Source: Candidatus Hermodarchaeota archaeon (GTDB lineage: Archaea > Asgardarchaeota > Hermodarchaeia > Hermodarchaeales > Hermodarchaeaceae). From it: a DNA stretch of 64,000 nt. The stretch covers positions 1-64,000 of the forward strand of contig JAEOTB010000054.1 in assembly GCA_016840065.1 (NCBI GenBank). Direction: 5' to 3'. Shown piece after piece: positions 2,614-37,278 of this stretch (the first letter of the stretch is position 1; the number at the start of each line of letters is the position of its first letter). The notes beneath the pieces were generated by a model. It saw only the letters and a list, made by a program, of their open reading frames with translations. It had not been told where the DNA came from and did no database searches. The position numbers and the translations under genes are program-made.

Positions 2614-5600
2614 CTATCCTCCGAATGCTGCTCGGAGCGATTGGTAGACTGCATCTCTTTCTTCCTTTGACATGGCCTTGAGCCGTTCAATGAGATCCGC
2701 TTTCTCTTCTTCTTGGAGTCCGGGGATTTTGTCAAGTTCCTGACGAATTGCCACTTCCAGGCTTGGCACCTCAGGCTCAGGGGGCTCTATCGGTGGTTCT
2801 AGGGGTTCCACTTCTTCGATATCTATTGGCTCGGGGGGTTCTAAGGGCACATCGGTGTCTGGTTCTGTAGTGGGTGTTGGTTCAGTAGGTACTGGTTCTG
2901 CTGGCTCTAGTGGTGTAACAGGTTCTGCGGGTTCTATTGGTGTTTCGACTTCAGGTTCTAGTGGTGTGATCGGCTCAGAGGGCTCAACCGGCACGGATGG
3001 TTCAACAGGCTCTGGTATAGGCTCTGGCTCATCAGGTTCAACGAATTCTGTAGATTCAGTTACTTCCGGCTCTGTTTCAGGTTCATCCTCAGGCTCAGGT
3101 TGCTCCTCCACAACTTCAGGCTCAGGTTCAGGCTCTTCATCCTCAATTGGTGGAGGTGGCTCGTCTGGTATCGACGGTTCCTCGATTGGCTCAGTTGGTT
3201 CAACTGGCTCAGGTTGCTGTTCAGGTTCTGATGGAGTATCTGTGCGGCGTGTGAGGGGATCCATCCTACGCTCGCTCATCTGGCGGCGCAAATCGTCGAG
3301 GAACCATACCCTGTCTGTCCGGGGTATCTTCATCATTTGTCTTGCCAGTTCAGATCTTTCAGCTGGGCTAAGACCAGAAATCGCTTCAAGTTGGACCAGG
3401 ATGTCTTCTTCAGAGTCACTTACTTCCTCGATGGTTGTTGTGACTGGAACAATGGCGGGTTGTACGGGGATGTCTATCTGGTCGAAGGCTTGGCGAACGC
3501 TCTTGCTCATGATTGCGTCGCGTGTACGGATTCTGTCACGGTCCTTACTGCTAAGCTCAAAGGAGCCTTCTCGGCCAACCTTCCGGGCAAGCCTTCGTAG
3601 GCGGCGAACTTCAGGTGGAACTGAGAGCATCCTCGTCCAGAGTAGCCAGAATAGGACGATGATTATGAGGATGACAGCGAGAGCGATTCCGCCGTTTATC
3701 ATCATGTTCATTAGTGGATTGTGTTCGAAGAAGAAGCCCACTTGGAGTTCAGAAGAGCTATAATCTTGCTTCACTGCTGTGAATGTCACCATACCCTGAC
3801 TTGGTGCAGGTCCAAAGACGGATACGATATAGTAGCCTGGACGTCCCGTGTCTTCTACAACTGAAACAGATGTGGAAGACAGACTACCAGAGAAGCTTAT
3901 TTCTATGGTTGCGTTTGTGACGCCGCAGATGTGGTAAGTATCGTTTAGGTAAAATTCGAAACTATAACTCTGACCGACGTAGAACATGTTGTCCGCTGGA
4001 AACAGTCCTAACGACTCGGCTGTCCAGTCTAGTAACACTGGAATGGGTGTAACTGAGAGGCTGCGTGAAAACTCTGCCTGCTGATGGTAGTCAAGGTCGA
4101 AGGTGAATTGGATTTCTGCGTCTTCATAGAAAGTCAATGGGAATTCAACGCGCCAGTATCCTGTCAAGCTGTCGAAGGAGAAGTCTTCATGAGCGGTGGA
4201 ATACTGTGAGGCTCCAAGAGCACCCATAACATCGGTGAGTGTAACATTCGAGTAATCGGCGAACCAGACCACGACGACAAGAGTGTCATGGATTGGAGCG
4301 TCCCAGCTGCTAAGAGTATAATCGATACTCACATTGTATAGGACTCCATCAATCTCTCGAAGTGTGTAGGCACCGATTATTTCATACTGGGTTTCACGAG
4401 GAGTAACAGTCAAGGATATGATTTCCTCATCATAGGCGTACCTTTGTTGGGTTTCATGAGTGATTACGAGCTGGTAGGTCTTGGGGATGTCGGAGGTCAC
4501 AAGCACTGTCGTGTAGTACCCAAGTGTTCCATTGGAGGTGAGGGAGCCTGAATGGGTTCCCCAAGTAAAGGCTAGCGTGCTACCGTCAATGCCTAGAGAT
4601 GTTTGAGAGTCTCCCAGGAATACGGTTAACTCGACTGAATCACCATACTGGCTGGTAATGGTCGATGATTCTACGGTAATTTCACAAGGTTTGTAATCAA
4701 GGGTAATTACAAAGAGGGTTGTCTGAAGCTCATAGTTGGTCGCATAGGCATAGATTAGAATCTGGTAGGGTCGGGCAGCCCACTCGGATTCAGAGGTGTT
4801 TAACCAGCACTCATAGTAGCCACTAGTAGCGTTTAGTAACAGAGTTTCTATTGGAAGTGATCCGTTGTATGCAGTTAGGGTAGCACCAGTAATTGTGCTT
4901 CCTCCTGAAACATTGTAGATCACCCGTAGCTGAATCATGGTGTCAAGGTAGGTGGTTATTGTTGATGTATCACCAGCTGGTATGTCGATTACTGTGCTAA
5001 CAGGATGAATTGTGAGGGTGTAGGTGAGAAGTGGTGTGGTGTAGTTGCTACCCATCGTCACCTGGACCGCGATTACGTAGGTCTGTGCATTCACATCGCT
5101 TGTGTTCAGTAAGACATAGTAGAAGCCGCCACTCAGCTCAACAAGCCAATCTGATGGTAGGCTCGCCCAGGTGAAGTTCACCTGCCCACTAGTTATCGGG
5201 AGACCTGTGTGATTACTTGAAAGGTAGACTGTGATATTGAATTGGTCAAGGTAGTAGCATTCTGAGGTAAGACCTGATGGATCGACACGGTCAATTTGGA
5301 GTATGTGGGGCCTTATCTGTAGGTCGATTCGGCGCTCTTGGCTAAGATAGTTAGACTTGTTAGCCATCAATGTGATGCTCCATTCCATCGCGGAGAGAAG
5401 AGAGGTGTCAATGGTGATGTTCCAGCTACCGTCGAGGTTCAGAGTTGCAGTGAAGGAGAGGGCTGGATCCAAGGACCAGAGACCTGAATCAGTCTGGTTG
5501 ACCCCAGTATAGAGGTCATAGTACCAGGCAGTGATGTTCAGCTTCATGCCATAGTAGACGATTTCATGTTGTACCCAGTCGAGTAAGGTAGTAACTTCTG

Positions 5601-8600
5601 TGATGCGAGCTGAAACCTGGTGAGTGGCTGAAGAGTAGTAAGGTGGTACTGGCGGCGAGGAAGGCCAGGTCATATTGATTTGGAATACATAGGTGCCTAC
5701 ATCCAGATCCATGTAGCCGTGAATGGTGACCACATAGACTCCGCTCAGGTGAGAGGAGTTGTCCAGTGACCAGAAGGTGGAATTGAACCCCGGTATATCA
5801 GCACAGCCTATCTCGAAACCGACCAAGAGGGAGGAGTTGTCAATGGGGTTGCCCCCGTCAGTCTCAAAGTGAAGTGTGATATTGATGTCAGACTGGTAAG
5901 AAACCGCACTTGGTGCATCAGAATAGAGAACCGTCGCTGTCCCTGTGACGCGGCAGGAGAAGACACTGGTTGCGTTTGCATAGAATGGAGCGTTTCCACC
6001 GACCCACGATACGTTGACCTGGAAGTCGAGGAATTCATAGATAGCTCCAAGCTGACTTGCATTAATGCGAATCTGGAACTCGTAAGTAGGATTAGTGGTT
6101 GCGTTCTCCACTACATATTCGGTCAGTAGTTCTGCACCAGTTGTGGCATTGCATACAATTATGCTGACATAGCCGCCCCTGGTGATGTTATCGTTGTTCC
6201 AACCACTAATCGAATCCCTGTAGTTAAGGTACACCACGATGTCATCGGCATATCCTGTATCAGTTGGGTAGGTTTGGACAACCGTGGTGGGGCGCTCCTC
6301 TGAAATCAAGTAGGCTTCAACCCACTGCTCCTCGTAATTGGGAGTAGCGGCATCCCACTCAGCGGAGATGTTGACCCACCACCTACCAGGGTAGGGTGTG
6401 AGGCTAGAGTTGAGAGTGATTTCATAGACGCCGTTGCCCAGATGGTTCACCGAGTAGTTACTGGGTGTCAGCGTCCAGCCAAGGCTGCCGTTCGTTGTGA
6501 CATATATGTGGTCCACGTTTGGAATACCATCCAGGTTCTGGGTGCTATCATCATCAAGAACCTTGTATATGACCTGGAAGACAAAGTTCTCCTCAAAGGC
6601 CACTTCATCAACTGGGGGACGCTCTAGCTCTGTGTAGACTGTTCGTACATGGAAAGTAATCTCAGAAATTGAGGCATTATCGTACTGGCTGCTGGGAGCG
6701 ATGGCATCAACCTGAATCTTGTAGCTGCCGATGTCCAGAGATGCATTGATAGTTATGAGATAGTAGGTGCCATAATCCGCCACTGTATAGTTGACATCGA
6801 GGACAAGGACAAGACCATCGAGTCCAGTTACATTCAAGGTGGCACTAGGAATGAAGTCTCCGTTGAACTGGCTTTCACCATCCAACACAAGGTAGTAGAG
6901 AGTGATATTCACATCGTCACCATAAGGCGTGCTGGAAACCTGGTTGTAAATCATGGTGGTAATCAGCGGACGAACCGTCATCACCAGACCCACAATCTGG
7001 CCATCCTCATAGTAGGCATGGGGGCTTGCCATGCTAATGGTGAAGGAGTGTTCGCCAACACTGCTCAACATCGTGGTAGTGAAGGTGATGGTATAGTTAC
7101 CGTCACCGTGATCGGTAACGAAGAAATCGGTTCCTAAGCTCCAGCCAGAAATCGATATTACTCCATTAGCGATGACTTGAGTGTCATTCGCGCTCACCGA
7201 ATCATCAACTTGGTACTGCACCACCAAGGTACCGTTCTCACCCCAAGGCACCGAGGAGGGTGGCGTGTAGAGGAAGGATATCGCGAGGGTGCGTATTGTA
7301 ACCTTGGTATTCACAACTCCGTCATTATACTCCAGGGTCGTTTCGATTGTAATCTGTACTGAGTGCTGTCCAAGGGACCAGGAGGAAGACTGGAGATAAA
7401 CCAGGTACTCGCCCTCAGATACATTGTACACGTAGGTGCCCCAGTGAGTCGTGTTATAGATTACACTGCTATAGCCTGAGCAGCTGATGGTAAGCTGGAC
7501 GACAGAACCGTTAAGGGCTTCACCCGTATCACTGTCGTTCACCCGGAGTGTAAACCAGGTATTGTTCTGATACGGAATGGAAGAAATCGGGTCAATGATA
7601 CCAACAATACTATGCTTACGGATGGTGACCGTAACCAAGCCCCAGCCAATATCAAAGAGGGTTAGATCATTGGGGAAGACAGTAACATTCAAGGTATGCA
7701 CAGTTAGCGTCCAGCCCTCCGCAGAGAGAAGGAAGGAAACCGAATAGTTAATCGCTGGCAGATTGGGATAGGAGGCTTCACTACCCGTAGTGTTGATGTA
7801 GTTAAGGTAGAGCGAAGCATTGATGACACCACCAACATCAGCGTCCTCCCACGAAACAGTAATGTTCACAGTCCCATCAGCTGGAACTGGGCTAGGAGGC
7901 GTGACTACCACGTTCACACGGTGCCCACGGATGACAACCGTCACACTACCACTAGCATCGCTGTAGTTGCGCGGGCCAGTGGTCGCATAAACACTAATGC
8001 TAAGGCTGTAGCCAGCATTCACCGACCAACCATCAGTATCCAAAGAGAAGGAGAAGACCCCAGTAAAGACCTGATCGCCGCCAACTGGACACCCAGAGAC
8101 AGTCACGTTAACCAAGTTGCTCGCGTCTAGGATACTGCCAGTGTCAAGGTCCAGCCACAAAAGCACTATTGACGTATTCTGACCCCACGGAGTAGGTTCA
8201 GGAGTCTGAATAGAAACCGACGTATAATGCAGACGAATCACAACAGTAACCGTCGAGCTGCTATTCTGATAGAAACCCAAGCTAGCATTCGCAACCACCA
8301 TGATGGTCAAGCTGTAGGAGCCCACCGACCACGAATCAGTGTCAAGCGTGAAACTCAGACTAGCAAAGGACTGATCACCGCCCACTGGACAGTTCGAGAC
8401 AATCACCAAGGAAAGGTTGCCACTCGGCACATCTGAGCTACCCAAGTCCAGGTCCAACCAGTCAACGGACATGCTGGTATTGAAGTCAAAGGGAGTCTGC
8501 TCGGGCGGCGAAGCGACGGTTTGAGTCTGGTGAGCCCGGATGGTCACAGTCACCGAGCCCGTTCCCGTATCATAGGAGGAGTTCCCATAGACCGTTACTG

Positions 8601-11600
8601 TCAAATCAAACGAGCCGACACTCCAATTAGCGGTCTCCAAGGAGAAGCTCAAGCTACCCGTGAACACTTGGTTCCCCCCTGTCGGACAGTCAGAGATAGT
8701 AATGTTAACCAAAGCCGAGACTGGGATGGCTTCACCAGTGTCGATGTCAATCCAGTACACCACTAAGCTGGTATTTACACCCCAAGCAGTCTGGGATGGA
8801 GGATCAAGAGTGACACTGACATAGTGTACCCGGATAGTGATGGTAACTGTATAGCTGTCGATGTCATAGAGTTGTGGTGACATGTCTGGGAAGACCGTGA
8901 CAACAACCTGGTACGCCCCAACGCTCCAAGCCTCAGTATCCAGGGTGAAGCTGAGGACGCCAGCAAAGGTCTGATTACCCCCAACAGGACAGTTCGAGAC
9001 GGTCACGTTATCAACATTGAGGGCAGCGATAGTAGTGCCTGTATCAAGGTCGTTCCAGGTAACTGTTATCGATGTGTTCTGACCTCGACCTGTCGCTGGA
9101 GGAGTGGCTGCTACTACCTCAACGCGGTGGACGCGAATCACCACAGTGACACTACCGCTGGCATCGGTGTAGTTCCGAGGGCCAGTCAGAGCATACACAT
9201 CCACGGTCAGAGTGTAGCCAGCACTAATGGACCAAGAATCAGTATCAAGAACTGGAGACAAGGTGCCAGAGAATGACTGATCGCCCCCAACAGGACAACC
9301 AGAGATCGTCACATTGTCAAGGCTAGAGGTACCAAGAATCGCACCAGTATCCAAGTCCATCCAGGTAATTACTAGTGTAGTGTTAAAGCCCCACGGAGTC
9401 GAATCAGGGGTCTGAACAACAATCGCAGTGTAATGTACCCGAATCACAACAGTGACTGTAGAGCTGCTGTTCTGGTAAAAGCCCAAGGTACCGTTGGCAT
9501 AGATGGTCACTGTTAGCAGGTATGTTCCCACGGTCCAATTATCCGTGATTAAAGTGAAGCTTAGACTGTTGAAGGACTGGTCGCCACCAGTTGGGCAACT
9601 CGACACTACGACCAAGGATAGGTTACCGCTGGGCACATCACTGCTACCCGAATCCAGATCCGTCCACTGAATAGAAAGGCTGGTATTAAAGTCGAAGGGA
9701 GTCTGCTCAGGTGGCGAGGTAATGGTTTGGGTCTGGTGGGCCCGGATAGTCACTGTGACAGAACCCGAACCAGTGTCATAGGAGGAGTTCCCGTAGACAG
9801 TAACTGTAAGGCCAAAGGAGCCCACACTCCAGTTCTGTGTAAAGAGTGCAAAGCTCAAGCTACCAGTAAAGGTCTGGTTACCGCCCGTTGGGCAACCAGA
9901 GATAGTAATATTATCAAGGGCCGAGACAGGGATAGCCTCACCAGTGTCCACATCAACCCAGTAAACAACGAGACTCGTGTTTGAGCCCCATGGTGTCTGG
10001 GCTGGAGGATCAAGGGTGACGCTCGTATAATGAACTCGTATTGTGACTGTTACTGTGTAGCTGTCAATGTCATAAAGCTGGGGTGACATGTCAGGGAAGA
10101 CTGTCACAACGACTTGGTAGTCTCCCACACTCCATGCTTCGGTATCCAGGGTGAAGCTAAGGACACCAGCGAAAGTCTGATTACCCCCGACCGGGCAATT
10201 CGAAACCGTCGCATTATCCACATTAACACTTGCGATAGTGGTGCCTGTGTCTAAGTCATTCCAGGTCACAGTGATGGAGGTGTTTTGGCCCCGACCTGTA
10301 GGTGAGGGTGTAGCAACGATTACCTCAGTCCGGTGGATTCGTATTACCACAGTAAGACTACCGCTTGAATCATCATAGTATCGAGGACCAGTAGTGGCAT
10401 AGGCCGTCACGGTTAAGCTGTAGCCTACGCTGATAGACCAGGAGTCAGTATCTAAGGTCGGTGTGAAGGACCCGGTGAAGGTCTGATCGCCGCCTACAGG
10501 GCAACCTGAAACAGTGATGTTCTGAAGATTACTGGTGTCCAAGATGGTGCTGGTGTCGAGGTCAATCCACTGAATGCTAAGCGATGTATTGAAGCCCCAT
10601 GGAGTCGGGTTAGGTGTCTGAACGACAACCGCAGTAAAGTGAATCCTGATAATCACAGTGACTGTACTGCTACTATTCAGGTAGAATCCAAGACTGGCAC
10701 TGGCATTAACCGAAACCGTCAGAACATATGTACCAGTTACCCAGCTATCCGTGTCCAAATCGAAGCTGAGACTGGAGAATGATTGATCACCACCAACAGG
10801 ACAACCTGAGACAACAACAGAGCTCAGGTTCCCACCAGGAACATCAGAGCTACCCAGGTCCAAATCCAACCAGTCAACCGACATGCTAGTATTGAAGTCA
10901 AAGGGAGTCTGCTGCGGCGGTGAAACAACTGTCTGGGTTTGGTGGGCACGGATAGTCACTGTGACGGTGCCGCTGTCGTCACTGTATGAGGTGTTGCCAT
11001 AGACCCAGACTGTGAGGGAGTATCCGCCGACACCCCAATCCTCCGTGTCAAGCTCGAAGCTCAGACTACTAGTAAATACCTGGTCGCCGCCCACTGGGCA
11101 TCCGGTGACGGTGATGTTGTCCAGGGCGTCAACCGGGATAGAGGTGCTTGTGTCGGTGTCTACCCAATTGACCTCCAAGCTAGTATTGGTGCCCCACGGG
11201 CTCTGGTCTGGAGGATTAACTGTTGCGCTCACGTAATGATTACGGATAGTGATTGTAACCTGATAGGAGTCAACCTCGTACAACTGAGGTGACATGACAG
11301 GATAGATAGTCACCGTGACGAGATGGCTACCCACACCCCAATCATCAGTGACCAGGATGAAGGAGAGGCTACCAGTGAAGGACTGATTACCACCCACTGG
11401 GCAATCCGACACGGTAACATTGTCCAAGTTGACGACATTGATTGTGGTGCCCGTGTCAAGATCATTCCAGGTCAACGTGACAGAGGTATTTAGACCCCAA
11501 CCAGTCGGAGCAGGAGTAGAAACGATGACCTCAACCCGGTGAATCTCGATGACAACAGTCACGCTACCCGAAGCATCACTGTAATTTCTAGGACCAGTCG

Positions 11601-14600
11601 TCGCATAAGCAGTTACAGTCAAGGTGTAGCCAGCGCTAATGGACCAGCCATCAGTGTCCAAGACAGGAGTGAAGGTACCTGTAAAGGTTTGATCCCCGCC
11701 CACAGGACACCCAGAGACTGTTATGTTCGCTAGATTGCTAGTATCGAGAATTTGGCCTGTATCAAGATCTGTCCAGATAATAGTCAAAGAAGTGTTGAAG
11801 CCCCAAGGTGTAGGCTCGGGTGACTGGACCACAACCGCAGCATAATGAAGACGGATAGTGACGGTGACGCTTGCACTGCCATTCTGATAGAAGCCCAAGC
11901 TAGCATTTGCATAGATTGTCACTGTCAGCGTGTAGGACCCAACAGTCCAGCTATCCGTATCCAGAGTAAAGGACAACGAAGCAAAGGCCTGATCACCGCC
12001 CACCGGGCAACTGGATACCACAACAGATGAAAGGTTACCACTGGCGACATCGCTGCTACCAAGATCAAGATCCACCCACTGGACCGTGATGGAGGCATTG
12101 AAGTCGAAGGGAGTCTGTTCGGGAGGTGAGATTATACCCTGTGTCTGATGGGAGCGAATCGTCACTGTGACCAGACCACTACCATCTGCATAGGAGACAT
12201 TACTATATACGTATACAGTCAGGACGTAGCCAGCAACACCCCAATCTTTGGTATCAAGGGTGAAGGAGTAACTCCCAGTGAAGACCTGATCGCCTCCAAC
12301 AGGACAGCCTGTCACTGTGATGTTGTCAAGAGCATCAACTGAGATTGTAGTGCTGGTGTCAGTATCGGTGTAGGTGACGGTGAGACTGGTATTGGTTCCC
12401 CAGGCTGATTGTTGCGGCGGGTCAACAACCACACTTGAATAGTGGTTGCGAATCGTCACCGTTAAGGTGTAGCTGTCACCATTATATTGCTGCGGTGACA
12501 TATCAGGATAGAGGGTCACAGTCACCTGGTGTGAACCGACACCCCAGTCATCTGTAACCAGAGTGAAGGTGAAGCTACCAGTGAAGGTTTGATCACCGCC
12601 CACCGGACAATCACTAACAGTGATGTTGTCCAAGTTGACGACCGCGATGGTAGAGATGGTGTCAAGGTCGTTCCATGTGAGGGTTATTGAGGTGTTGAGC
12701 CCCCATCCAGTGGGTTCTGGAGTGGTTACGATGATTTCTGTGCGATGAACCCGAATGACTACGGTAACAGTAGTTATGGGGTCGCTGTAGTTGCGCGGAC
12801 CCGTGGTTGCATAGAGGTTCACCGTCAAGGTGTAGCCAGCGCTGATAGACCAGCCATCCGTATCTAATACAAAAGTGAAAGCTCCTGTGAAGACCTGGTC
12901 ACCACCAATCGGACAATTTGTAATGGTGATGTTCTCAAGATTACTTGTATCAAGAATAGAGCCTGTATCGAGGTCCGTCCATACAAGGGTGAGGGATGTG
13001 TTTTCGCCCCAAGGTGTTTGTTCGGGTGATTGAGCAACGACTGCTGTATAATGAAGTCTTATTGTAACCGTGACGCTTGCGCTGCTGTTCTGGTAGAAGC
13101 CCAGACTTGTATTGGCATAGATGGTAACTGTCAGTGTATAAGATCCAGTGATCCAAGAATCTGTGTCGAGGGTGAAGCTCAAACTGGCGAAGGTTTGATC
13201 ACCACCCAACGGACAGTTAGACACTACAACGGAGGATAGGTTCCCGCTGGCAACATCAGCGCTACCCAAGTCTAGATCGACCCATTGCACGGTGAGTGAG
13301 GTGTTGAAATCGAAGGGAGTCTGTTCAGGAGGAGACACTATAGTCTGGGTCTGGTGGGAGCGGATGGTTACTGTTACGAGGCCGCTACCATCAGCATAAG
13401 AGACATTGCTGTACACATACACGGTCAAGACGTGGCCTGCAACGCCCCAATCCTCAGTGTCGACTGTGAAAGTGAAGCTGCCTGTGAATACCTGATCGCC
13501 GCCTACAGGACACCCAGTTACCGTTATGTTGATTAGGGCGTCTACAGAGATTGTGGTGCTGGTGTCAGTATCGGTGTATGTAACCGAAAGGCTGGTGTTG
13601 GTTCCCCAGGCTGATTGTTGCGGCGGGTCAACAACCACACTTGAATAGTGGTTTCGGATTGTTACAGTCACAGTATAGCTATCCCAATCGTACAGTTGAG
13701 GTGACATATCGGGGTAAAGGGTGACATTCACCTGATGTGACCCAACACCCCAATCATCAGTGACCAGGGTGAAGGTGAAGCTACCCATGAAAGTCTGGTC
13801 GCCGCCCACTGGACAATTGGACACCGTGATGTTGTCCATATTTGCGATGGTGACGGTGGAGCCAGTGTCAAGGTCATTCCATACTAGGATTATTGAGGTG
13901 TTCAGCCCCCAACCAGTAGGTTCTGGCGTGGTGACGATGATTTCCGTGTTGTGAATACGAATAATCACCGTGACAGTGCTAGAAGCGTCGCTGTAGTTTT
14001 GAGGACCAGTGGTCGCAAAGAGATCCACCGTCAGGGAGTAGCCTGTACTAATTGACCAAGAATCAGTGTCCAGTACAAACGTGAAGGCCCCAGTGAAGAC
14101 CTGGTCACCACCCAACGGGCAGTTGGAGATGGTGATGTTCTCGAGATTACTGGTATCAAGAATAGCTCCTGTGTCAAGATCTGTCCACACAAGAGTAAGG
14201 GAGGTGTTCTCTCCCCAAGGAGTTTGTTCAGGTGATTGAACCACTACAGAAGTGTAGTGGATTCTGATTGTTATGGTTACACTGGAGCTGCTGTTCTGGT
14301 AGAAGCCTAGGCTAGCATTGGCATAAACGGTAACCGTTAGCGTATAGGAACTGGTGGTCCATGAGTCCGTATCGAGGATGAAACTCAAGCCACCAAATGT
14401 TTGGTCTCCTCCTACAGGACAGTTGGATACAACAATAGAGGAGAGGTTACCACTGGCGACATCGATGCTACCCAGATCTAGGTCGACCCATTGGACGGTG
14501 ATGGAGGTGTTGAAGTCGAATGGAGTTTGTTCTGGAGGAGACACTATAGTCTGGGTTTGGTGTGCTCGAATCGTTACTGTTACTGAACCGCTGCCATCAG

Positions 14601-17600
14601 CATAGGAGTCGTTACCGTACACATATACAGTTAGGACATGGTCTACGACACTCCAATCCTCAGTATCGAGGGTGAAGGAGTAGCTTCCGGTAAAGACTTG
14701 GTCGCCGCCCACTGGACAACCAGTGACTGTGATATTGATGAGCGCATCAACAGAGATTGTTGTGCTTGTATCGGTATCAGTGTAGGTAACCGTGAGGCTA
14801 GTATTGGTGCCCCAAGCCGATTGCTGCGGCGGATTCACAACCACGCTCGTGTAGTGGTTGCGAATCGTCACTGTTACTGTGTAACTATCAATGTCATATT
14901 GTTGCGGTGCCATGTCTGGGTAGAGGGTAATATTGACCGGGTGTGCGCCGACGCCCCAATAGTCAGTCACTAAGGTGAAGGTAAAGCTTCCCGTGAAAGT
15001 CTGATCCCCACCTACTGGACAATTACTCACGGTGATGTTGTCCAAGTTGACAACAGCGATAATGGAGCCAGTATCGAGGTCATTCCAGACCAGGGTGACG
15101 GAGGTGTTGAGTCCCCAGCCTGTAGGCTCAGGGGTTGTAACGATGATTTCTGTCCGGTGAACACGTATAACCACGGTTACCGTGGTTGTGGGATCGTTGT
15201 AATTGCGAGGTCCGGTCATCGCGTAGAGGTTCACCGTTAGGGAGTAGCCGGCGCTGATAGACCAGGAGTCCGTGTCAAGAGTGAAGGTAAAGGTGCCCGT
15301 GAAGACCTGGTCACCACCTACGGGACAATTGGTGATGGTGATGTTCGCCAAGTTACTCGTATCTAGAATGGCGCCAGTGTCGAGGTCAGTCCATACCAGG
15401 GTAAGGCTGGTGTTGAAGCCCCAAGGCGTTTGTTCGGGTGACTGGGCCACGACCGCTGTATAATGCAACCTGATGGTGACGGTGACACTTGAACTGCTAT
15501 TCTGGTAGAAGCCCAAGCTGACGTTAGCGTAAATCGTCACCGTTAGGGTGTAGGACCCAGTGGTCCACGAGTCCGTGTCAAGGATGAAGCTGAGGCTCGC
15601 GAAGGTCTGATCCCCACCCACTGGACAATTGGACACAACAATGGAGGAGAGGTTACCACTCGGTACATCAGAGCTACCAAGGTCTAGATCTACCCACCGT
15701 ACACTGATGGAGGTGTTGAAGTCGAAAGGCGTCTGTTCGGGTGGTGAGACGATGGCTTGCGTTTGGTGGGAGCGGATGGTTACTGTTACTAGTCCACTAC
15801 CATCGGCGTAGGAATCATTCCCATAAACGTAAACAGTCAAGACGTGGTCTGCTACACCCCAATCTTCAGTGTCGAGGATGAATGAGAAGGTGCCCGTGAA
15901 GACTTGGTCGCCACCCACGGGGCATCCGGTGACGGTGATGTTGATGAGGGCATCTACGGAGATTGTAGTGCTTGTATCAGTGTCCGTGTAGGTTACAGTT
16001 AAACTAGTGTTGGTTCCCCAAGCTGACTGTTGCGGTGGATCTACAACCACGCTCGTATAATGGTTGCGAATTGTGATGGTTACCGTGTAACTGTCGATAT
16101 CATAGAGTTGGGGTGCCATGTCTGGGTAGAGGGTGACACTCACTTGATGTGAACCCACACCCCAATTGTCGGTTACCAGGGTGAAAGTGTAGCTGCCAGT
16201 GAAGACTTGGTCGCCACCCACCGGGCAATTACTAACGGTGATATTGTCCAAGTTGACAACAGCAATAGTGGAGCCAGTATCGAGGTCATTCCAGACCAAG
16301 GTACTGGAGGTGTTCAGTCCCCAGCCTGTGGGCGCGGGGGTAGTGACGATGATTTCAGTACGGTGGGTTCTTACTACTACTGTGACGCTTGTTGTGGGAT
16401 CGTTGTAATTGCGAGGTCCGGTCGTCGCGTAGAGGTTCACCGTCAGTGTGTAGCCGGCGCTGATAGACCAGCTGTCTGTGTCAAGAGTGAAGGTAAAGGT
16501 GCCCGTGAAGACTTGGTCGCCGCCCACGGGGCAATTGGTGATGGTGATGTTCTGCAGGTTACTGGTGTCGAGGATAGCTCCCGTGTCCAAGTCAGTCCAA
16601 ACTAGGATAAGACTAGTGTTTTCACCCCAAGGCGTATGTTCGGGTGATTGAGCCACAACGGCAGTGTAGTGCAGCCGTATTGTTACCGTGACGCTGGCGC
16701 TGCTGTTCTGGTAGAAGCCCAGGCTGACGTTGGCATAAACGGTAACCGTTAGCGTATAGGACCCAGTGGTCCAAGAGTCCGTATCGAGGGTGAAGCTGAG
16801 GCTAGTAAACGTCTGATCGCCACCCACCGGGCAATTCGAAATCACAACTGATGAAAGGTTACCACTGGCGACATCTACACTTCCTAGGTCGAGGTCCACC
16901 CACTGCACAGTTATGGAGGTGTTGAAATCGAAGGGGGTTTGCTCAGGAGGAGATACAATGGTTTGAGTTTGGTGGCTTCTGATGGTGACCGTCACTGAAC
17001 CACTGCCAGTGTCGTAGGAAGTGTTGCCGTAGACGTATACGGTTAGGGTATGTCCGTCAACGCCCCAACCCTCTGTATCCAAAATTATGGTGAGACTGCC
17101 AGTGAAGGTTTGATCGCCGCCTACTGGACAGCCCGTGACGGTTATGTTGTCGAGAGCGGAGACGGAGATAGTGGTGCTGGTATCTACATCCTCCCAGTTC
17201 ACGACCAGAGTTGTGTTTTCACCCCAAGCGGTTTGGGCGGGAGGATTGATGGTCACGGAAACATAGTGGGCACGGATGGTTATTGTCACCGTGTAGATGT
17301 CCGTCTCATATTGCTGTGGTGACATATCGGGGTAGACCGTGATTGTGATTTGATAGCTGCCTACGCTCCAGTCATCGGTTTTTAGCGTGAAGCTTAGGCT
17401 ACCGGTGAAGGTCTGGTTGCCGCCGACAGGACAGTTGGACACGGTAATGTTGTCGAGGTTGCTGACATTGATTGATGTGCCTGTGTCGAGGTCGTTCCAT
17501 GTAACGGTAATGGAGGTGTTTAGGTCAAAGGCAGTAGGTGCCGGTGTGGAAGCGATGGCTTCTGCCTGATGGATGCGGATGACCACCGTGACGCTTCCTG

Positions 17601-20600
17601 TGGCATCACTATAGTTGCGTGGACCAGTGGTCGCATAGATGGTCACACTGAGCGAGTAACCTGCGCTGATGGACCAAGAGTCCGTGTCCAAGGTCGGAGC
17701 GAAGGTGCCAGTGAAAGTTTGGTTACCACCCACCGGACATCCTGACACTGTTATATTACTCAGGTTACTGGTGTCAAGAATAGCTCCTGTATCGAGATCT
17801 GTCCAGATGATAGTGAGCGAGGTGTTTTCACTCCAAGGCGTGGGTTCGGGGGATTGAACCACTACGGTTGTGTAGTGGATTCTGATGATGACGGTTACGC
17901 TACTGCTGCTATTCTGATAGAAGCCAAGGGCAGCACTAGCGTTGATGGTGATTGTTAGTGTGTAAGATCCTACGGACCAGCTGTCAGTGTCGAGGGTGAA
18001 GCTTAAGCTACTGAAAGTTTGGTCGCCGCCCACTGGGCAATTAGACACAACCACGGCGGAGAGGTTGCCGCTAGGCACATCACTGCTACCTAAATCGATG
18101 TCCACCCACTGCACAGTTATGGAGGTGTTGAAATCGAAGGGGGTCTGCTCAGGGGGTGAGGTTATTGTCTGGGTTTGGTGGGCGCGGATGGTTATGGTGA
18201 CGGTGCCGTCTCCAGTGTCGTAGGAGGTGTTGCCGTATACGTAGACGGTGAGGCTGTAGGAGTTGACGCCCCAGTCCTCTGTATCGAGGGTGAAGGTGAG
18301 GGAACCGGTGAATACCTGGTCTCCTCCTACGGGACAGTTGGTGACGGTGATGTTGATGAGGGCGGAGACACTGATGTCGCTATCAGTGTCGATGTCTCGC
18401 CAATTGACGGTGAGGCTCGTGTTTGTGCCCCATGGATTTTGGGCTGGTGGGTCAACGGTAACTGTGACATAGTGGGCGCGGATGGTTATGGTGAGGTTGT
18501 AGCTGTCGATGTCGTAGAGTTGGGGTGCCATGTCTGGGTAGGCGGTGACGGTGATGAGGTGGGCTCCGACATTCCAGTCGTCACAGACCAAGGTGAAGAT
18601 GAAGCTGCCTGTGAAGGTCTGGTTGCCGCCAACGGGAGTGTTGGAAACGGTGATATTGTCGAGGTTGCTGACATCGATGGTTGTTCCTAGGTCTAGGTCA
18701 TTCCAGGTCACGGTCAGGGAGGTGTTGAGACCCCAGGCAATGGGTGCGGGGGTGTTGACTATGACTTCGACTCGGTGGAGCCGTACCACCACAGTGACTG
18801 ACCCACTCGCGTCAGCATAGTTACCTGAAGCGGTATAGACGGTCACAGTGAGCGAGTAACCGGTGCTGATGGACCAGGAGTCCGTGTCCAAAGTGGGCGA
18901 GAAAGTACCAGTGAAGGTTTGGTCGCCACCGACCGGGCAATCAGAGACCGTGATATTATCAAGCTGGCTGGTGCTCAATATTTGGCCCGTATCGAGATCT
19001 GTCCAGATGACAGTAAGGGTGGTGTTCAACCCATAAGGTGTGGAGTTGGGTGGCTGAACTGTTACAGCGGTGTAGTGGATTCGTATGATGACGGTTAAGC
19101 TACTGCTACTGTTCAGGTAGTAGCCGAAGGCTCCGTTTGCATAAACGGAAACAGTTAGGACATAGGTTCCAACCGTCCAAGAGTCGGTATCTAGAGTGAA
19201 GCTAAGGGAATAGAAGGTTTGGTCGCCACCGACCGGACAATTGGATACGACGATGGAGGAGAGGTTACCGCTGGGCACATCACTGCTACCCAAGTCTAGA
19301 TCCACCCAATCAACTGAGATTGAGGTGTTGAAGTCGAATGGAGTCTGTTCAGGGGGTGATACTACAGTTTGGGTTTGGTGTTCTCTTATGGTTATGATGA
19401 CAGGTCCGTTGGTCGCGTAGTAACTGGAGTTGCCGTAGACATAGATTGTGAGACTAAAACTCCCTACGCTCCAGGCTTCAGTGTCAAGGATGAAGGTGAA
19501 ACTGCCAGTGAAGGTTTGGTCACCGCCCACCGGGCATCCAGTGACGGTGATATTATCGAGGGCGGTGAGGTCGATGGCAGTGGAGGTGTCAGAGTCCTGC
19601 CAGTTGATGGTCACAGAGGTGTTGGTACCCCATGGGCTTTGAGCGGGTGGGTCGGCTGTGACGCTGGCGTAGTGGGCGCGGATAGTGACGGTTACTTGAT
19701 AGCTACCGATTTGGTAGTTGTTTGTGTTGGAGTAGACGGTTGCGTTGACGAGGTGGTCGCCCACACTCCAGGTATCTGTTTTGAGGGTGAAGGGGCCAAT
19801 GGTGGAGGAGCTTTGGTCGCCGCCCACCGGGCAGTTGCTGATGGTTACATTGTCTAGTTCGGTGTCTGTGAGAGTGGTTCCGTTGTCCAGATCTGTCCAG
19901 GTGACGGTGAGGCTTGCGTTGAGTCCCCAGGCTGTTGGGTTGGGTGTTTGGATTGAGACGCTTACTCGGTGGGCTCGGATGGTGACTTGGACGGTGGCGT
20001 TGTCGTCTTCGTAGAGGCGGGGTGAGGTGAGGGCATATACCTGGACTGTGAGGGTTTCGGTGGCCAAGTTCCAGGTGCTTGTGTCGAGCCAGAAGGTAAG
20101 GCTGTTGGCTGTTGTTACCAAGCTGCCGTTAGCGAATAGTACGGTGACGTTCAGGAGGTCCGAGTCAGTGAGGAGGGATCCATCTTCGAGGTCCGTCCAT
20201 TGGACGACTAGCTGGGTTTGCCATCCCCAGGGCGTTTCATCTGGGGGTTCGACAAAGACGGCTGTCTGGTGGGTGCGGATCGTTATTCTTAGGTTGCCCT
20301 GGCTGTAAACATAGAGGCTAGTGTTGGAGTAGACATAGGCGGTCAGGTTGTAGGTGTTCGTCGTCCAGTCATCAGTGTCGAGGATGAAGGTGAGGCTGGT
20401 GTGGTTGGAGATTGCGGTACCATTCTGGAAGCGGACATCCACACGATCTAGGACACTAGCTGTGAGGTCAGTATTTGTGTCAAGATCTGTCCAGGTGACG
20501 GTAACGGTGACGTTGTTGCCGATGCCTACGGGGTCGGGCTGGTCTACTATTGTTTGTGTGAGGTGCGCCCTTATGTCGAAGGTAAGGCTCCGGCTGGCAC

Positions 20601-23600
20601 TGGTGTAGTCAGTACTAGTGGGTGTGACCGTTATGTCTAGCTCATAGAGGGCGACCTCGGTGAGTACTGAGGCGTTAATCGTGATAAGGTATTCTCCGCC
20701 CCCTAGGGAGGTCCAGGTGAAGTTGATGTTTAGGACCAGTGGCGTCCCATTTAGTTCACAGGTTATGGTTGTGACTGCTGGGAAGGTTCCGTGTTCGCTA
20801 CTGGCGGAGTCATCAACAAAGTAGTTGATGGTGACGCTCATGTCGGTGCCCCAGGGTTCGGGGTTGGGGGCGTCGTAGAAGACTACGGTGTTAATCTGCC
20901 GGAGCGTTAAGATCACATCTACTGTGCGGTTAGCGTAGAAGGGGTTGTTTGCTCCAGCGGCATCATACCAGGTGAAGTTAACAGTAAAGGTGTATTGACC
21001 TGCTCCTGGGAGGGTGGAGGTGTCGATGGTGATGTTCCATATTCCAGCGGCAAATTCAGTTATGGTCGCGTCGGTCCAGAGGGCTCCTGAATACCAGAGG
21101 GTGAGGTTGACGTTGGGGGAGCTGGGGAGATTTGCTCCACCTTCATCCAGGTCGGTTATGGTGACTGTGAGGTTAGCTTGCTCGTTGAGTGGGAGGGTGG
21201 AGGGAGTGGTTGAGGAGAGTTGGGTGTTTCTGGCCCGTACGCTGACATAAGCAGTCACGGTCCTGTTGGCAAAGAAGGGGTCATTGGCTGAGCCGTTGAG
21301 GTACCAGTAGAAGCGGATTTCAAAGGTGTGGGTGCCAAGCCCCTCAAGATAGCTGGTGTTTAAACTGATTTCGTACACTCCTATTGAGCCGCTATAGGTG
21401 ATGGTAGCATACCCGAGGGTATCCCATCGGTGGGTGCTGTTCCAGACTTGGAGGTGGATGTGCCCGGTACTGTTACTTACGGGGTTGCTGCTGTTATCAA
21501 GGTCTGTAAGGGTGATGTCGAATACCGAGTCATTCCCGAAGGGAACGGTGAGGATGGCCCCGGTAGAGAGTTGAGTGTTTCGTGCTTGTACCAAGATGGT
21601 TAGGGTGAGGGTTTGGGTCTGGTAGCTTGTTCTTTGGGCTGTGACGGTCATGTAGTAGGTTCCAGGTTCGCTGACTTCGCCCGAGTCTATAGTGAAGTTG
21701 TACCATCCGCTGCCCTGCGCGGTGGGATTGACGGCGTTGGTCCAGTTTGAGGTGACTGTGGCGCTTTCGATTCCCGTCTCATCCACTTCTCGTCTATAGG
21801 CGAAGTTGACATTGGTTGTCTCCCCATAGGGAATCGAGAATCCTGGAGTGGAGGGAGATGTCAGGGTTGTCTCCTCGACCACACTGACGGTTATCAGGCA
21901 GTAGGCATCAGCATGGTACTGTTTTGTGGCGTTCACTCGGAGAGTATAGTTTCCTGCATTCTGGGCAGTAGAGTCGAGTTCTACGACATAGAAACCGCCG
22001 ACTAGCTCGAAGGTGTCAGAGCCCGTCCAATTACCCACAACGGTTGCACCCTCAAGGAAGGTGTCCGTGGGAGAGGTATCATTACTATAGAAACGGACTC
22101 GCGGGTAGAAATAGCTGCCCGTCTGACGAATCACCTCAATCGTACTATATTGGGGAATAAGGGTGGTTGTCCCGTGGGTAACTGTTATAATGGTGGAGTT
22201 AAAGCCAGCCGCAGTCATGGATTGTGTGTCGCCATTATCATAGCTTACGCAGAGAGTGTATTCGCCTGCAGCGAATTCGGTTCCATTGTCAAAACTTACC
22301 GCGGAGAAGGAGGCGGCGCCTGCGACGACTGATTGTGTGTCCTCAGCGACAATGGTACCTGAGGGATCATAAAGAGTGAGGTTTGCTTCACCAGTGGTCT
22401 TGCCGAAGGTTGCGCTAACAGAAAGGCTGTTCGGCGTATTAGGTGCAATTTGGAAGGTATCAAAATTAAGGGTGACCGTATCGACTCGATTTGGTGAGGT
22501 TAGGGTAAAGTTCCACCAGCCGTAGGCATCGTTGATGGTGGAGTGGGTCATGCGGATGTGAGTACTGTTGCTGTCAGTGGTTACAGGGCTTGTACGGTTA
22601 TTGAAGAGCGCGTCGATGACCGTATCTATTGTCCATGTCTCAGTGGTGGGCAGAGCGATAGTGAGGTTATAATCGTCAAAGTAGAAAGGTTGGTACGCAT
22701 AGTACCATGTGTTCCAGTATACACTGGTTTCGTTCTGAGCCGAGAAGGTTGTACCCTCTGGCCCTGTCTGCTGCTCGGTGGTGGAATCCTTTGTTATGTA
22801 AAGAGTGAGATTGTAATCAAAGTAGACGCCGCTGCTGTTGCTGGAGTAGGTCTCCCAGAGGGCTTGCACCGTTGAATGGCTAGCACCCGGGTTTGCCCAG
22901 GTTCCGGTGAGGGTGATGGTGCCGGTTCCATAACCGGTGCTGGTCACAGCGGTGCTGTTCAGGCGGAGGTCAACCCAGGCATGGTCTGGTTGTGCCTTTC
23001 CTGTTATCTCCAGTGTGACATCATCGAAGTCTAGAGCCCATTCCTCAGCTGCCGGGGCGTCGACGTCCGCGGTGAAGCTGAGTCCCAGCCGGACTGTGAG
23101 AAGTGGCAGGCTCCATGTGAGAATGTCATCATAAGGAATACTCACATTGACCTGATACCATTGCCCATCGTTCGGAGCTGTTGATGCTAGGAGTCTTGGG
23201 TAAACTATCCCTTCAACTTCGACATAGATGACTAGGTTACCTCGGCAGTCTGGTTGACCCACAGAGATTTGGTTTACTTGGACATAGAATGTCAGCTTTG
23301 CATATGATACGTCGGTTCGGGGAATGCTTATGTTGTTGAACCAGGCAGCATAGGAGTCGTCATTCATGTCATAGTTATTGCTCCAGGCGGCTTGAACGCG
23401 AACACCATTTGTACTAGACCGACCATAGGAAGTTCCATACGAACCAGAATGGGAGTTAGGGCTTGCGACCCAGTAGCTGGTGTAGTTCCATTCGGTGGGG
23501 TCTGATCCGCTGCTGGCTTCAAAGTCGCCGTTCTCGCGGGTTCCATTTATCCAGTAGAGTTTGTCGTGGAGGTTATCGACATTGCCTATTAGCTCGTAGC

Positions 23601-24325: not shown

Positions 24326-26452
24326 CTATTCATCATTTGGTGTAACACGGAAGGCTTCGATGCATGAGAGTTTGGTCTGGGTGTGTAGGCGCTCTGGTAT
24401 GAGCTGGGCTTGCCATAGTTTGTGAAGCCCCTGGTATATGATGACCTCAACTTCAGGATCTTTTAGCAGATTGTTTCGTTGGGCTTGACGTTCTAGGGTT
24501 TCTGCAAATTCTGGGTTCTCCTCCCAGGAGGTTTCTATTTTCTCTTTAAGGAATGTGAGGAAGTCAGGGTCGAGTTCGGTGACTGGTGCTGTCCGCTGTT
24601 CTAGGTTACGGGGAACCCGTCGATCGAGATCCATTAAGAGAAGGGGAGGGATGGCGAAAAGGTGGGTTGTCTCGTTATCTCGCTGAAATCCTAGTAGGAA
24701 GAAGGGTATCTGTAGCTCAAGAACGGTATCGGTGGGCAGTAGTGCCTCTGGTTCCATGAGATATTCTTCAAATAACTCCTTTCTTCCCTGACAATGTTTA
24801 ATCTGGTCCTGAATTGATTCTTGAATTTTGGTGGAGAGATTCTCCAATGTTTGTTGGCGTTCTTGGATTTCTTGGAGCTTCTGATCTCGTTCCTGGTCTA
24901 GGGCAACAAGTCGGGCTTTCTCTTGTCGAACCAGTTCTGCATAGTGGTTGCGGAGTCCAGATATTCTCTCTTCAGCGTTACGGTTCAATTCTTCAAGATC
25001 CTTCTCAATTTGCTGAATGAGCTTACGCCGATCCTTTATCTTATCCCGCAACTCACTGCTGAAGGATTTATCAAAAACATCGAGCACAGACCTCATATCA
25101 TCCATGAATCGAGGAACATTGGGGTCAACCTCTGAATCTACTTTGATGAGTTGGGCAAGGGCTTCTCTTTGCTGTACAAAATCCTCATCAACTGGCTCCA
25201 AGCTAAATCTTAGCCTTTCGACGAGTTTGGACTCTTCACCCTGCCACCACTCCTTCGCTTCGTCTATTGCTGAGTTTTCCTGTCGGGATAGCTCTTCTAG
25301 GTTCCGATTGATTTCCTGTACCAGATTCTCACGCCGTGTTTCATAGTAGGATTGCATTTCATCAAACTCTCTCTCAGCTCGCTTAGTCCAGTTTCGAACT
25401 TCTTCTTGGAAATGAATCCTGAACTTGTCCCACTGTCCTGCTGCAGAGACATGGCTCTGGATGGCTTCATCATAGAACCTTTCAGTTGCGTGGATACTCT
25501 GGGACTGAACTACCTTTGGGGGGAGAGGTGAAGCATATTCTACCTTTGAGCTTGCTAGGCTGCTCAGCTTCCTGATTAGCTTGGCAAATTTAGGAGTAAC
25601 AAGATAGGTTTCGAAGGGGCTGGTTCGAGGGCTCGCGATGATGTCTTCTTGAAGTTTCTCAAGCCCTGCAAGGAACTCGAGGTTAGTTTCGACTTTGAGG
25701 AGGGCTTCGTATCTGCTGGTGGAGGGCATATTACCCCGTTCTACTGCATGCTGATTTAGGGCTAACCCATCGATAATCGCAATGTTTCCATTTTGTTGAC
25801 GCACAATCCATAGGGGCCAAAGAACCTTAGAGAAGAATTGATAGCATCCTTTTTTGAGTGGCTTGAGCTGTCTTGTATTCTGGCGGATGTCCTCAGCCAG
25901 GAGGTAAACAGCTGCTAGTTCTTGGTGGGTGTCTAGCACCAGAGAACTATCCATTTCGAGAGAGTGAATTGATGGCTCATCTAAGCTTTTTCCGTCTAGG
26001 GAAAAGGGAAGCGAGAATTGTGCATCCCCTTCTGTACGCCGACTCTCCGCAACAATTACTTCGATATCCTCTGTAAAGTCCCCAAAGGGGGCTGGATTAC
26101 CGTCCCAATCAGTAAGCATAGTTTGATATTTCTCAACAAAGCGTCGCTTGATCTCGGTGAGGACCTTTTGTCCATCTTGTGGATTATGGGCTTTATCGGT
26201 GGCGACGGCGAAGAGGATGTCATTTGACTTGTGAAGTAGGAAGTAGAAACTCACTTCGCCTAGATTGATGGTTTCGATGCCGCCATGGCCCAGTTCTTCG
26301 GCAAAGGCGTTTAAGGCGCTGTAGAACCCGCTAAATACCGCTTCGTCTACTCCTCGTCTGCTAAACGTCTTGTGGACCATTACTTCACCGGTTGCTCGCT
26401 TGAGCACATAGACATCACGTATCATTTCGACCAACATCCGATAATGTTTCAA
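24326..26452 (-). CDS. Longin/roadblock-like domain protein with long coiled coil
   Basis: A 708-residue cytoplasmic protein of unknown function. Residues ~10-120 have the strand-strand-helix-three strands-helix pattern of longin/profilin-like small domains: VYVLKRATGEVMVHKTF, an amphipathic helix, VSFYFLLHK and ILFAVATD, then a helix. Residues ~350-560 are Glu/Lys/Arg/Gln-rich and strongly predicted coiled coil (for example RKLIQQIEKDLEELNRNAEE). A ~130-residue C-terminal globular part follows. In Asgard archaea, longin and roadblock domains are associated with small GTPases and membrane traffic, so a scaffold or GTPase-linked role is possible but inferred. The ORF track starts at a TTG. A TATA-like GGCTTAATAATCT at 26454-26466 suggests the true start may be an ATG at 26437 or 26425. 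Confidence 0.75.
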   Translation of the reverse strand: MKHYRMLVEMIRDVYVLKRATGEVMVHKTFSRRGVDEAVFSGFYSALNAFAEELGHGGIETINLGEVSFYFLLHKSNDILFAVATDKAHNPQDGQKVLTEIKRRFVEKYQTMLTDWDGNPAPFGDFTEDIEVIVAESRRTEGDAQFSLPFSLDGKSLDEPSIHSLEMDSSLVLDTHQELAAVYLLAEDIRQNTRQLKPLKKGCYQFFSKVLWPLWIVRQQNGNIAIIDGLALNQHAVERGNMPSTSRYEALLKVETNLEFLAGLEKLQEDIIASPRTSPFETYLVTPKFAKLIRKLSSLASSKVEYASPLPPKVVQSQSIHATERFYDEAIQSHVSAAGQWDKFRIHFQEEVRNWTKRAEREFDEMQSYYETRRENLVQEINRNLEELSRQENSAIDEAKEWWQGEESKLVERLRFSLEPVDEDFVQQREALAQLIKVDSEVDPNVPRFMDDMRSVLDVFDKSFSSELRDKIKDRRKLIQQIEKDLEELNRNAEERISGLRNHYAELVRQEKARLVALDQERDQKLQEIQERQQTLENLSTKIQESIQDQIKHCQGRKELFEEYLMEPEALLPTDTVLELQIPFFLLGFQRDNETTHLFAIPPLLLMDLDRRVPRNLEQRTAPVTELDPDFLTFLKEKIETSWEENPEFAETLERQAQRNNLLKDPEVEVIIYQGLHKLWQAQLIPERLHTQTKLSCIEAFRVTPNDE

Positions 26453-30979: not shown

Positions 30980-31921
30980 GTGAGTGGCTTGTCAGCGAGC
31001 CTCCAATTACATGATGTCCAGGACACAGGCGAGATTCTAGAGATAAAGCCAAAGGGTGACATTAGGGACGAGCTCGCTGGTGACCGAGTTCTCATAATTG
31101 TAAATCATGAGGACCGAAAGATATGGGTGTGGATGGGGGGACAGGCTCGCGTTCGCAGGAAATTTATTGGTGCCCGCCAAGCACAAGCCATCCGTAGTCA
31201 GGTTGGCCTCACATACAAGGTTATATCTGTTGAAGCTGGCGATGAGTCAGGAGAATTTCTCACAGCAGTTGGTCTTAAGGCACCCACAAAGGTTGAGAAA
31301 CCTGAAGTTGTCACTGAGGTGGATATCCCCACCCGTCCAGCCTCTAAGCCAAAACCTGTAACTACCCCAAAACCCAAACCAAAGACAACCCCAAAACCCA
31401 AACCAAAGACAACACCCACCCCAACCCGTCCAGTTGCGACTACACCAGCACCTTCGAGCCAGCTAGGCCAAGAATATGAGGGGTTAGAGAAGGTTTTCCC
31501 GCTTAAGGAAACAGGCTTAACCTCACCAACAAAGTTGGACCGCATCATCAGCATCATTGAGAGTACTACACTACCACCAGGCTATGCACGTGAACTGGTT
31601 ATCATTGGCCATGAGGTCTTTACAACTGTAGAACGTACAGTAGATCAGATGGGTAAGACAAAAACTACAATCCAACTAGAGCGCAGCCACACGTTACCCG
31701 AGGGCACATTTTTTGGCGGCGATTACACTCCACGAATCATCGTTGAAGCTGGACGGGTGCTTGCCACCGAGTTCTTAAAGAGAGTTAATAATGGAGACAG
31801 AACAAGTCTTCGTGACACAACTCAAGACGCTGGGGTTTCACAACTCCTTGACATTTTCCAAATCAGCACAGAAAAACCGAAGCCCCCAAAGCGGAAGAGA
31901 AAAGCTAAGGCAAAGCCATAA
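30980..31921 (+). CDS. Gelsolin-like domain protein with Lys/Pro linker and C-terminal domain
   Basis: A 313-residue protein. Residues ~30-100 match a gelsolin/villin repeat: RVLIIVNHEDRKIWVWMGG (core strand with the W-x-G turn), a helix with ARQAQAIR, then YKVISVEAGDESGEFLTAVG, equivalent to the family's EGxExxEF segment. A Lys/Pro/Thr linker follows (~110-160, KPKPKTTPKPKPKTTPTP), then a ~130-residue domain I do not recognise (LVIIGHEVFTTVERTVDQMG, FFGGDYTPRIIVEAGRVLA). The tail is very basic (KPPKRKRKAKAKP). Asgard gelsolins bind and remodel Asgard and eukaryotic actin, so an actin-regulating role is plausible. The extra domain and basic tail could bind membrane, nucleic acid or partner proteins. 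Start is GTG, apparently leaderless. The zinc-ribbon gene follows 97 bases later with its own SD. Confidence 0.8.
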   Translation: MSGLSASLQLHDVQDTGEILEIKPKGDIRDELAGDRVLIIVNHEDRKIWVWMGGQARVRRKFIGARQAQAIRSQVGLTYKVISVEAGDESGEFLTAVGLKAPTKVEKPEVVTEVDIPTRPASKPKPVTTPKPKPKTTPKPKPKTTPTPTRPVATTPAPSSQLGQEYEGLEKVFPLKETGLTSPTKLDRIISIIESTTLPPGYARELVIIGHEVFTTVERTVDQMGKTKTTIQLERSHTLPEGTFFGGDYTPRIIVEAGRVLATEFLKRVNNGDRTSLRDTTQDAGVSQLLDIFQISTEKPKPPKRKRKAKAKP

Positions 31922-37051: not shown

Positions 37052-37278
37052 GTTTACTTCCGAGTTCTTGTTTGTATTGAGATATTTATAGGAGATGATA
37101 GTATTATATGAGAGAATATTGGAGATTCTTCTTCAAGATTACGTTTTTCGAAGGGTACAATGGTTTTGCGATTTCCTCAATTGATATGAGATATGTTTTA
37201 GGATTACTTAATGTTAATGATTCTTATTCAAAGAAAAATAATCCAAAAGCTATTTAAACCAGAAAGACTTAGCACTAT

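Follow-up and report, generated by a model that had tools for sequence, protein, structure and literature searches.

A fixed order of four Ig-like modules, repeated ten times, in a giant predicted surface protein of a Hermodarchaeota archaeon

INTRODUCTION

Higher-order domain repeats, in which several domain types follow one another in fixed order and the whole series recurs, are best known in a single protein from titin, whose A-band part contains six cassettes of seven and eleven cassettes of eleven immunoglobulin (Ig) and fibronectin (Fn) domains (PMC7427331). Chains of dozens of Ig-like domains are also found in giant adhesins. That of Mobiluncus mulieris has 7,651 amino acids (aa), 51 Ig-like domains and an N-terminal adhesive domain (PMC10619420), and SiiE of Salmonella has 53 BIg domains (PMC5466336). 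Giant proteins (>3,000 aa) have already been reported across the Asgard archaea, in an account the accessible part of which does not describe a higher-order module order (PMC8813620). We found nothing relevant in the literature on Asgard Ig-like surface proteins. Here we describe a higher-order repeat in a member of the Asgard archaea, which are related to the ancestors of eukaryotes. The gene lies in a stretch of 64,000 nucleotides of Candidatus Hermodarchaeota archaeon (contig JAEOTB010000054.1, assembly GCA_016840065.1), which is referred to below as the window.

The reading we favor, and consider reasonably probable, is that the product of the gene is a giant adhesin or surface stalk, anchored in the membrane in type-I orientation, with a jelly-roll head and a block-duplicated stalk in which the order of the modules is fixed because neighbors are not interchangeable.

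RESULTS

Four module classes recur in one order for ten rounds

The open reading frame (ORF) of the giant protein spans 7,109 aa on the minus strand (2614-23943). When it is split at a recurring 'TIRxH' junction, 40 modules of ~100 aa tile the segment from 19971 down to 7924 without a gap, and the order D-A-B-C is maintained through all ten rounds. Class lengths are 101 (D), 98 (A), 101 (B) and 102 aa (C), with exceptions confined to round 1 (D, 99 aa; C, 100 aa). Rounds 2 to 10 therefore measure exactly 402 aa, or 1,206 base pairs (bp), each, and round 1 measures 398 aa, or 1,194 bp. The first-pass annotation, made from the letters of the window, had placed 40 modules in ten DABC rounds at 7924-19971, and these limits hold to the base. 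Its spacing of ~1,201–1,211 bp between B modules was close without being exact; the value is 1,200 bp once and 1,206 bp eight times. The rounds are as follows, the second species being Candidatus Hermodarchaeota YT_063, of the same genus (genome G009, contig JAEOSX010000161.1).

18778-19971, minus strand: round 1, 398 aa, orthologous to round 1 of the second species
17572-18777, minus strand: round 2, 402 aa, orthologous to round 2 of the second species; D module without the motif cysteine in both
16366-17571, minus strand: round 3, 402 aa
15160-16365, minus strand: round 4, 402 aa, in the most similar central group (rounds 4-7)
13954-15159, minus strand: round 5, 402 aa
12748-13953, minus strand: round 6, 402 aa
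11542-12747, minus strand: round 7, 402 aa
10336-11541, minus strand: round 8, 402 aa
9130-10335, minus strand: round 9, 402 aa, sister of round 10
7924-9129, minus strand: round 10, 402 aa

Mean identity within classes is 68% (D), 70% (A), 80% (B) and 73% (C), compared to 47–52% across classes, and the best match of every module (40/40) belongs to its own class. Averaged by module lag, identity is 0.49, 0.50, 0.49 and 0.79 for lags 1 to 4, with further peaks at 8, 12, 16 and 20. Four-module periodicity was the test that the first-pass annotation had named for itself, and the lag-4 value of 0.785 stands well above the 0.48–0.50 seen at lags 1–3. When module order was shuffled 20,000 times, the lag-4 mean was 0.541 and the maximum 0.625; the residue-shuffled protein gave no lag peak. 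In a tree of 59 modules from the two species, each class forms one clade, on one side of one branch, and the four classes need the minimum of three changes, a number not reached in any of 200 shuffles. The array escaped Tandem Repeats Finder owing to the divergence of the copies and to a period that exceeds the 500-bp limit of the program. What is found, then, is the titin-like pattern in which different domain types keep their order and recur with a constant period (DABC ten times, 402 aa).

Repeats are a known assembly hazard, and the source genome is a draft of 131 contigs estimated to be 83.9% complete, so an inflated copy number or outright assembly artefact has to be considered; the first-pass annotation had listed this as an outcome that would overturn it. 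DNA identity between rounds is only 59–77% (i.e. they are at least 23% different) and the longest exact repeat within the ORF is 56 bp. Given this, short reads are sufficient to place the rounds. Every round carries substitutions of its own, and the contig of the second species contains this cassette with its modules in identical order. The objection fails on the divergence between rounds and on the second species, and we regard an artefact as extremely improbable.

Amplification of the cassettes largely predates the split of two species

The gene of the second species, the contig of which ends inside round 4, begins with the same MRFRK... start, and its N-terminal part is 86% identical to that of the window protein. 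Its rounds 1 and 2 pair with rounds 1 and 2 of the window protein (support 100/100 and 92/96), its round 4 clusters with rounds 4–7, and window rounds 9 and 10 are sisters. This pairing indicates that amplification largely preceded the species split. Between rounds, the proportion of synonymous differences (pS) is 0.69–0.85, i.e. saturated or nearly so, with a synonymous divergence (dS) of at least 1.9 and a nonsynonymous divergence (dN) of 0.08–0.28. Between the two species, a 267-codon block of the head gives dS ~0.95 and dN 0.03. As judged from these sequence comparisons, the cassettes are old, and purifying selection has maintained the classes since the split. Because the DABC pattern has been kept since before the two species separated, the four-domain unit itself probably matters.

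Round-to-round identity matrices of the different classes correlate (Mantel r 0.28–0.80), with five of the six pairs reaching the observed value in no more than 39 of 2,000 permutations. Together with the monophyly of the classes and the block duplications in relatives described below, these correlations lend good support to growth by duplication of a four-module cassette, as first proposed from the letters of the window. Gene conversion or recent homogenization is rejected: synonymous sites approach saturation, with rounds 4 and 6 no exception, and cross-class identity is the same within rounds (0.490) as between them (0.485). At identical residues, the same codon is used 41% of the time versus 35% for random draws, and with codon identity still slightly above random, diversifying codon choice to avoid recombination is unsupported. 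A viral origin was also considered, and no relative was found in viral contigs. A search of 84,980 species genomes with array peptides, in which records of the source genome were possibly left out, returned only the contig of the second species.

Sister lineages carry other modules and other blocks

Homologous Ig-like stretches occur in 41 of the 196 genomes of the phylum, mostly in very long ORFs. Two orthologues come from a sister genus, G047:C28 (4,075 aa; L042:1298-13522) and G018:C35 (3,536 aa; L041), and both are colinear with the window protein over residues 31–830 and 5441–7109. Between these parts they carry 113-aa modules in place of the DABC array. As a module of the 113-aa type also lies just before the array in the window protein, different modules of a common ancestral stalk were apparently amplified in the sister lineages. 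In G047, modules 3–7 recur as modules 8–12, with identities of 71, 79, 86, 84 and 70%; G018 has six corresponding modules in the same order without a second set.

One might suppose that the period has no function, i.e. that unequal exchange amplified a four-module unit, that only length was needed and that the class differences are inherited history. The central rounds 4–7 are the most similar, as unequal exchange predicts, and the sister genus has another module type and period at the same position, from which it follows that the family as a whole does not require this exact unit. Against such a neutral origin, class-diagnostic residues are fixed despite nearly saturated synonymous sites, nine rounds are exactly 402 aa with no insertion or deletion, and no module has been gained or lost out of register in either species. 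On balance, we think it unlikely that the period is a by-product of this kind.

A giant of another, distant Asgard family (G156; 4,972 aa, L082:328-15243) has 18 modules in the order ZXY, repeated six times in rounds of a constant 337 aa. Same-type identity is 58–69% and cross-type identity 23–26%, and the protein has related tail helical repeats. The ZXY array is independent of the DABC array. Most arrays among the giants surveyed are simple tandem or irregular, and hence higher-order repeats in Asgard giants are recurrent but not the rule. Separately, giants of one family (L044, 2-10507; L045; L046; L049; L051) show a recurring self-similarity at a lag of ~540 aa, and L044 shows one at 674 aa, which suggests further multi-module blocks.

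Class differences concentrate in the FG, BC and AB loops

An AlphaFold2 model of two rounds (804 aa; one good model of five; mean predicted local distance difference test (pLDDT) 78.3, predicted template modeling score (pTM) 0.40) is a chain of 7-stranded sandwiches with very short linkers, and it supports an Ig-like fold for every module. Dozens of tandem Ig-like beta-sandwiches are thus predicted (the 40 modules plus flanking ones), the design of a giant adhesin. Among solved structures, the best Foldseek matches of the stalk model are the neck (9flp, E 2.9e-20) and base (9fly, E 5.0e-18) of grappling hook protein A (GhpA) of Aureispira, and a thick-filament chain (8q6t_I) ranks 33rd. No Pfam family, Ig and Fn3 included, matched the array above cut-off in a scan of its C-terminal part, so that the label Ig-like given by the first-pass annotation stands by fold and not by family. 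An array profile gave two weak matches to PDB sequences (E 0.27 and 0.77), neither of them titin.

With secondary structure taken from the two-round model, the information that distinguishes the classes is greatest in the FG loop (1.21 bits), followed by the BC loop (0.93), the AB loop (0.79) and strand A (0.78). The NCPVGGD loop and strand C' are nearly uniform across classes (0.13 bits). Fifteen columns are at least 90% conserved in all classes; His1, Asn18, Asp27 paired with Asp29, and the CPVGGDQ Gln are among them. The standard Ig fold places the BC and FG loops on the side of the preceding module, with the AB loop at the opposite end. Given this position, class-specific junctions are a natural explanation of the fixed order. 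The structural repeat of ~400 residues suggested earlier is consistent with the exact 402 aa of nine rounds and with these class-specific BC and FG loops. The functions offered for it were 'four faces' or a 'helical pitch'. Relative module orientation is left unfixed by the two-round model, and such a twist or set of faces is without support there.

A lone cysteine in nearly every module

The array contains one cysteine per module, which lies within the motif CPVGGDQ in 39 of 40 modules; in the D module of round 2 it is gone from the motif in both species, and the Gln is retained. Matches to the broader motif CxxGG[DN]Q number 39 in the window and 13 in the fragment from the second species, and there are none among the 47 other giant ORFs of the survey. 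It is unusual for a surface protein to have a conserved lone cysteine every 100 residues. The array is also strongly acidic (363 D/E versus 62 K/R) and almost without lysine (0.1%), and the whole protein has 230 N-glycosylation sequons compared to 91 expected.

Cys and Gln, the pair required of a thioester, are both present in 39 of the 40 motifs, a comparison of residues and not of pair geometry. Since Gln is kept where Cys has been lost, it has another role at least in that module, and this speaks against a thioester in each module. A stalk with an isopeptide bond in each module, as in Mobiluncus, is ruled out by the near-absence of the lysine donor. A more elaborate proposal is a covalent ladder, in which the CPVGGDQ cysteine links chains through disulfides or captures a partner through a Cys-Gln thioester, and the four-module order sets a 16-nm side-by-side register. 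We hold out little expectation that this is correct; if it were, a titin-like extracellular filament with cross-links would be among the structures built by Asgard archaea.

The same cysteine bears on whether the 402-aa unit (~16 nm) acts as a ruler that spaces binding sites for a partner, be it an S-layer lattice, a second chain or a glycan. Titin offers a clear precedent, as its 11-domain super-repeat (~44 nm) matches the thick-filament period (PMC7427331). Class-specific FG loops do return every fourth module, and one cysteine per module could cross-link chains in register. However, no partner or lattice of ~16-nm period is known, and the sister-genus orthologues are without the 402-aa period. 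A ruler of this sort strikes us as improbable.

Predicted architecture of the whole protein

The ORF contains both a hydrophobic N-terminus, as expected of an export signal, and one C-terminal transmembrane stretch, and a type-I topology (N-terminus outside, C-terminus inside) is predicted. Its parts, from the N-terminus on, are listed below.

2614-23943, minus strand: whole ORF
23854-23943, minus strand: signal-peptide-like N-terminus, residues 1-30; hydropathy peak at residues 6-29
22144-23853, minus strand: N-terminal head, residues ~31-600, jelly-roll domains and an Ig-like domain (AlphaFold2, Foldseek, Pfam); predicted distal tip
19972-22143, minus strand: pre-array Ig-like modules, residues ~601-1324, including one 113-aa-type module and the module at 19972-20271
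7924-19971, minus strand: higher-order repeat, 40 Ig-like modules, DABC ten times
3724-7923, minus strand: post-array Ig-like stalk, residues ~5341-6740; from ~residue 5441 colinear with sister-genus orthologues, in order, at 27-53% identity
3634-3711, minus strand: predicted single transmembrane helix, residues ~6745-6770; hydropathy up to 2.78, followed by a basic RRLRRLARK stretch
3250-3627, minus strand: cytoplasmic tail part 1, helical repeat h1 (EDILVQLEAISGLSPAERSELARQM...)
2767-3249, minus strand: Pro/Glu-rich cytoplasmic linker; tail composition 61 P and 68 E in 369 residues
2617-2766, minus strand: C-terminal helical repeat h2 (IRQELDKIPGLQEEEKADLIERLKAM...), related to tail repeats of other Asgard giants

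The AlphaFold2 model of the head (pLDDT 77.3, pTM 0.62) consists of jelly rolls and an Ig-like domain. Foldseek matches it to the carbohydrate-binding modules (CBMs) CBM11 1v0a (probability 1.00, TMt 0.50) and CBM4 3k4z and to EphA ectodomains, and Pfam places FlgD_ig above cut-off at residues 507–572. Head homologues occur in 28 of the 196 genomes of the phylum. In other families the head (L095-L110) sits in much shorter ORFs, mostly of 1,200–1,800 aa, which indicates that head and long stalk are separable.

Part 1 of the tail (126 aa) is found in 7 of the 196 genomes, all of the same family and often several times per genome; a second giant of the source genome, on contig C9, also carries it. 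Similarity of repeat h2 to the tail repeats of the ZXY giant (L082) and of G047 exceeds that in all 500 shuffles. Asgard cells have an actin cytoskeleton. As a helical repeat is common to the tails, these giants may connect the cell exterior with the cytoplasm.

Upstream of the giant gene lie a 708-aa ORF (24326-26452) and an M28 peptidase/DUF4910 gene (28871-30859). Both have counterparts in the same order beside the gene of the second species (L038), and the upstream neighborhood is thus conserved. The 708-aa ORF has no convincing Pfam match; by eye, its N-terminal part is longin-like and its middle part coiled-coil. Elsewhere in the window, a 24-bp tandem repeat (2.2 copies, 31364-31418) lies inside ORF 30980-31921, a histone-deacetylase-family gene adjoins a Ras-family small GTPase gene, the two being oriented divergently (35894-37983), and a pterin gene cluster occupies the minus strand at 45459-48850 (pterin-binding DUF4346/DUF6513, an MptE-like kinase and a GTP cyclohydrolase of the FolE2/MptA type). 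Two adjoining NosD-like right-handed beta-helix proteins (971 and 681 aa; 49084-54148) are possible further surface proteins.

DISCUSSION

The repeat, its age, the constraint on its classes, block duplication in relatives and, by sequence, a membrane-anchored architecture are established here, and a surface stalk with non-interchangeable neighbors would account for them as follows. The jelly-roll head would be exported and held off the cell by ~60 Ig-like modules with almost no linker, and it would serve in adhesion. The stalk would end in one transmembrane helix and a tail in which two helical repeats flank a Pro/Glu-rich spacer. Its 40-module part would have grown by repeated duplication of the D-A-B-C block, largely before the species split, after which purifying selection would have kept the block intact. 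The order is most likely fixed because neighboring modules cannot be exchanged for one another. Their class-specific BC, FG and AB loops would give rise to four distinct junctions (D-A, A-B, B-C and C-D), and only whole cassettes could then be added or lost without breaking a junction. At ~4 nm per module, as in titin, a round would extend ~16 nm and the array ~160 nm.

Several points weigh against this interpretation. The transmembrane helix and the signal were called by hydropathy only. Likeness of the head to CBMs is a fold match (TMt ~0.5) and no demonstration of sugar binding. Because inter-module geometry is poorly defined in the two-round model (pTM 0.40), matched junctions are offered as a proposal, and it is equally conceivable that the BC and FG loops serve as class-specific ligand-binding sites. 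Finally, the contig end cuts the gene of the second species in round 4.

Multi-module blocks arose more than once in membrane-anchored Asgard giants, as four modules ten times, five modules twice and three modules six times, and these form a natural series for asking why the order of stalk domains is fixed.

How does the window protein compare with known systems? Like titin, it is a giant beta-sandwich chain in which several domain types keep a fixed order and recur together as a higher-order repeat. Unlike titin, which is intracellular and eukaryotic and has a period matching myosin, it is a predicted-exported stalk of an archaeon, its four Ig-like types share one origin, and it has no known partner; a sequence relation to titin was not found, and it is therefore not a member of the titin family. 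GhpA is likewise a giant protein built of similar sandwiches and gives the best Foldseek matches, but it is bacterial, and an aligned identity of at most 14% and a whole-chain TM-score of ~0.2 point to a shared fold and not a shared arrangement. The adhesin of Mobiluncus and SiiE are nearly the same in size and design, with dozens of Ig-like domains in a chain. Both are bacterial; the domains of the former have isopeptide and ester cross-links, whereas SiiE binds calcium and is exported by type 1 secretion. The window protein differs from them in its predicted C-terminal transmembrane helix and cytoplasmic tail, in the CPVGGDQ cysteine of nearly every module and in its four-module order. By analogy, then, it would work like the long Ig-stalk adhesins and is built like the super-repeats of titin.

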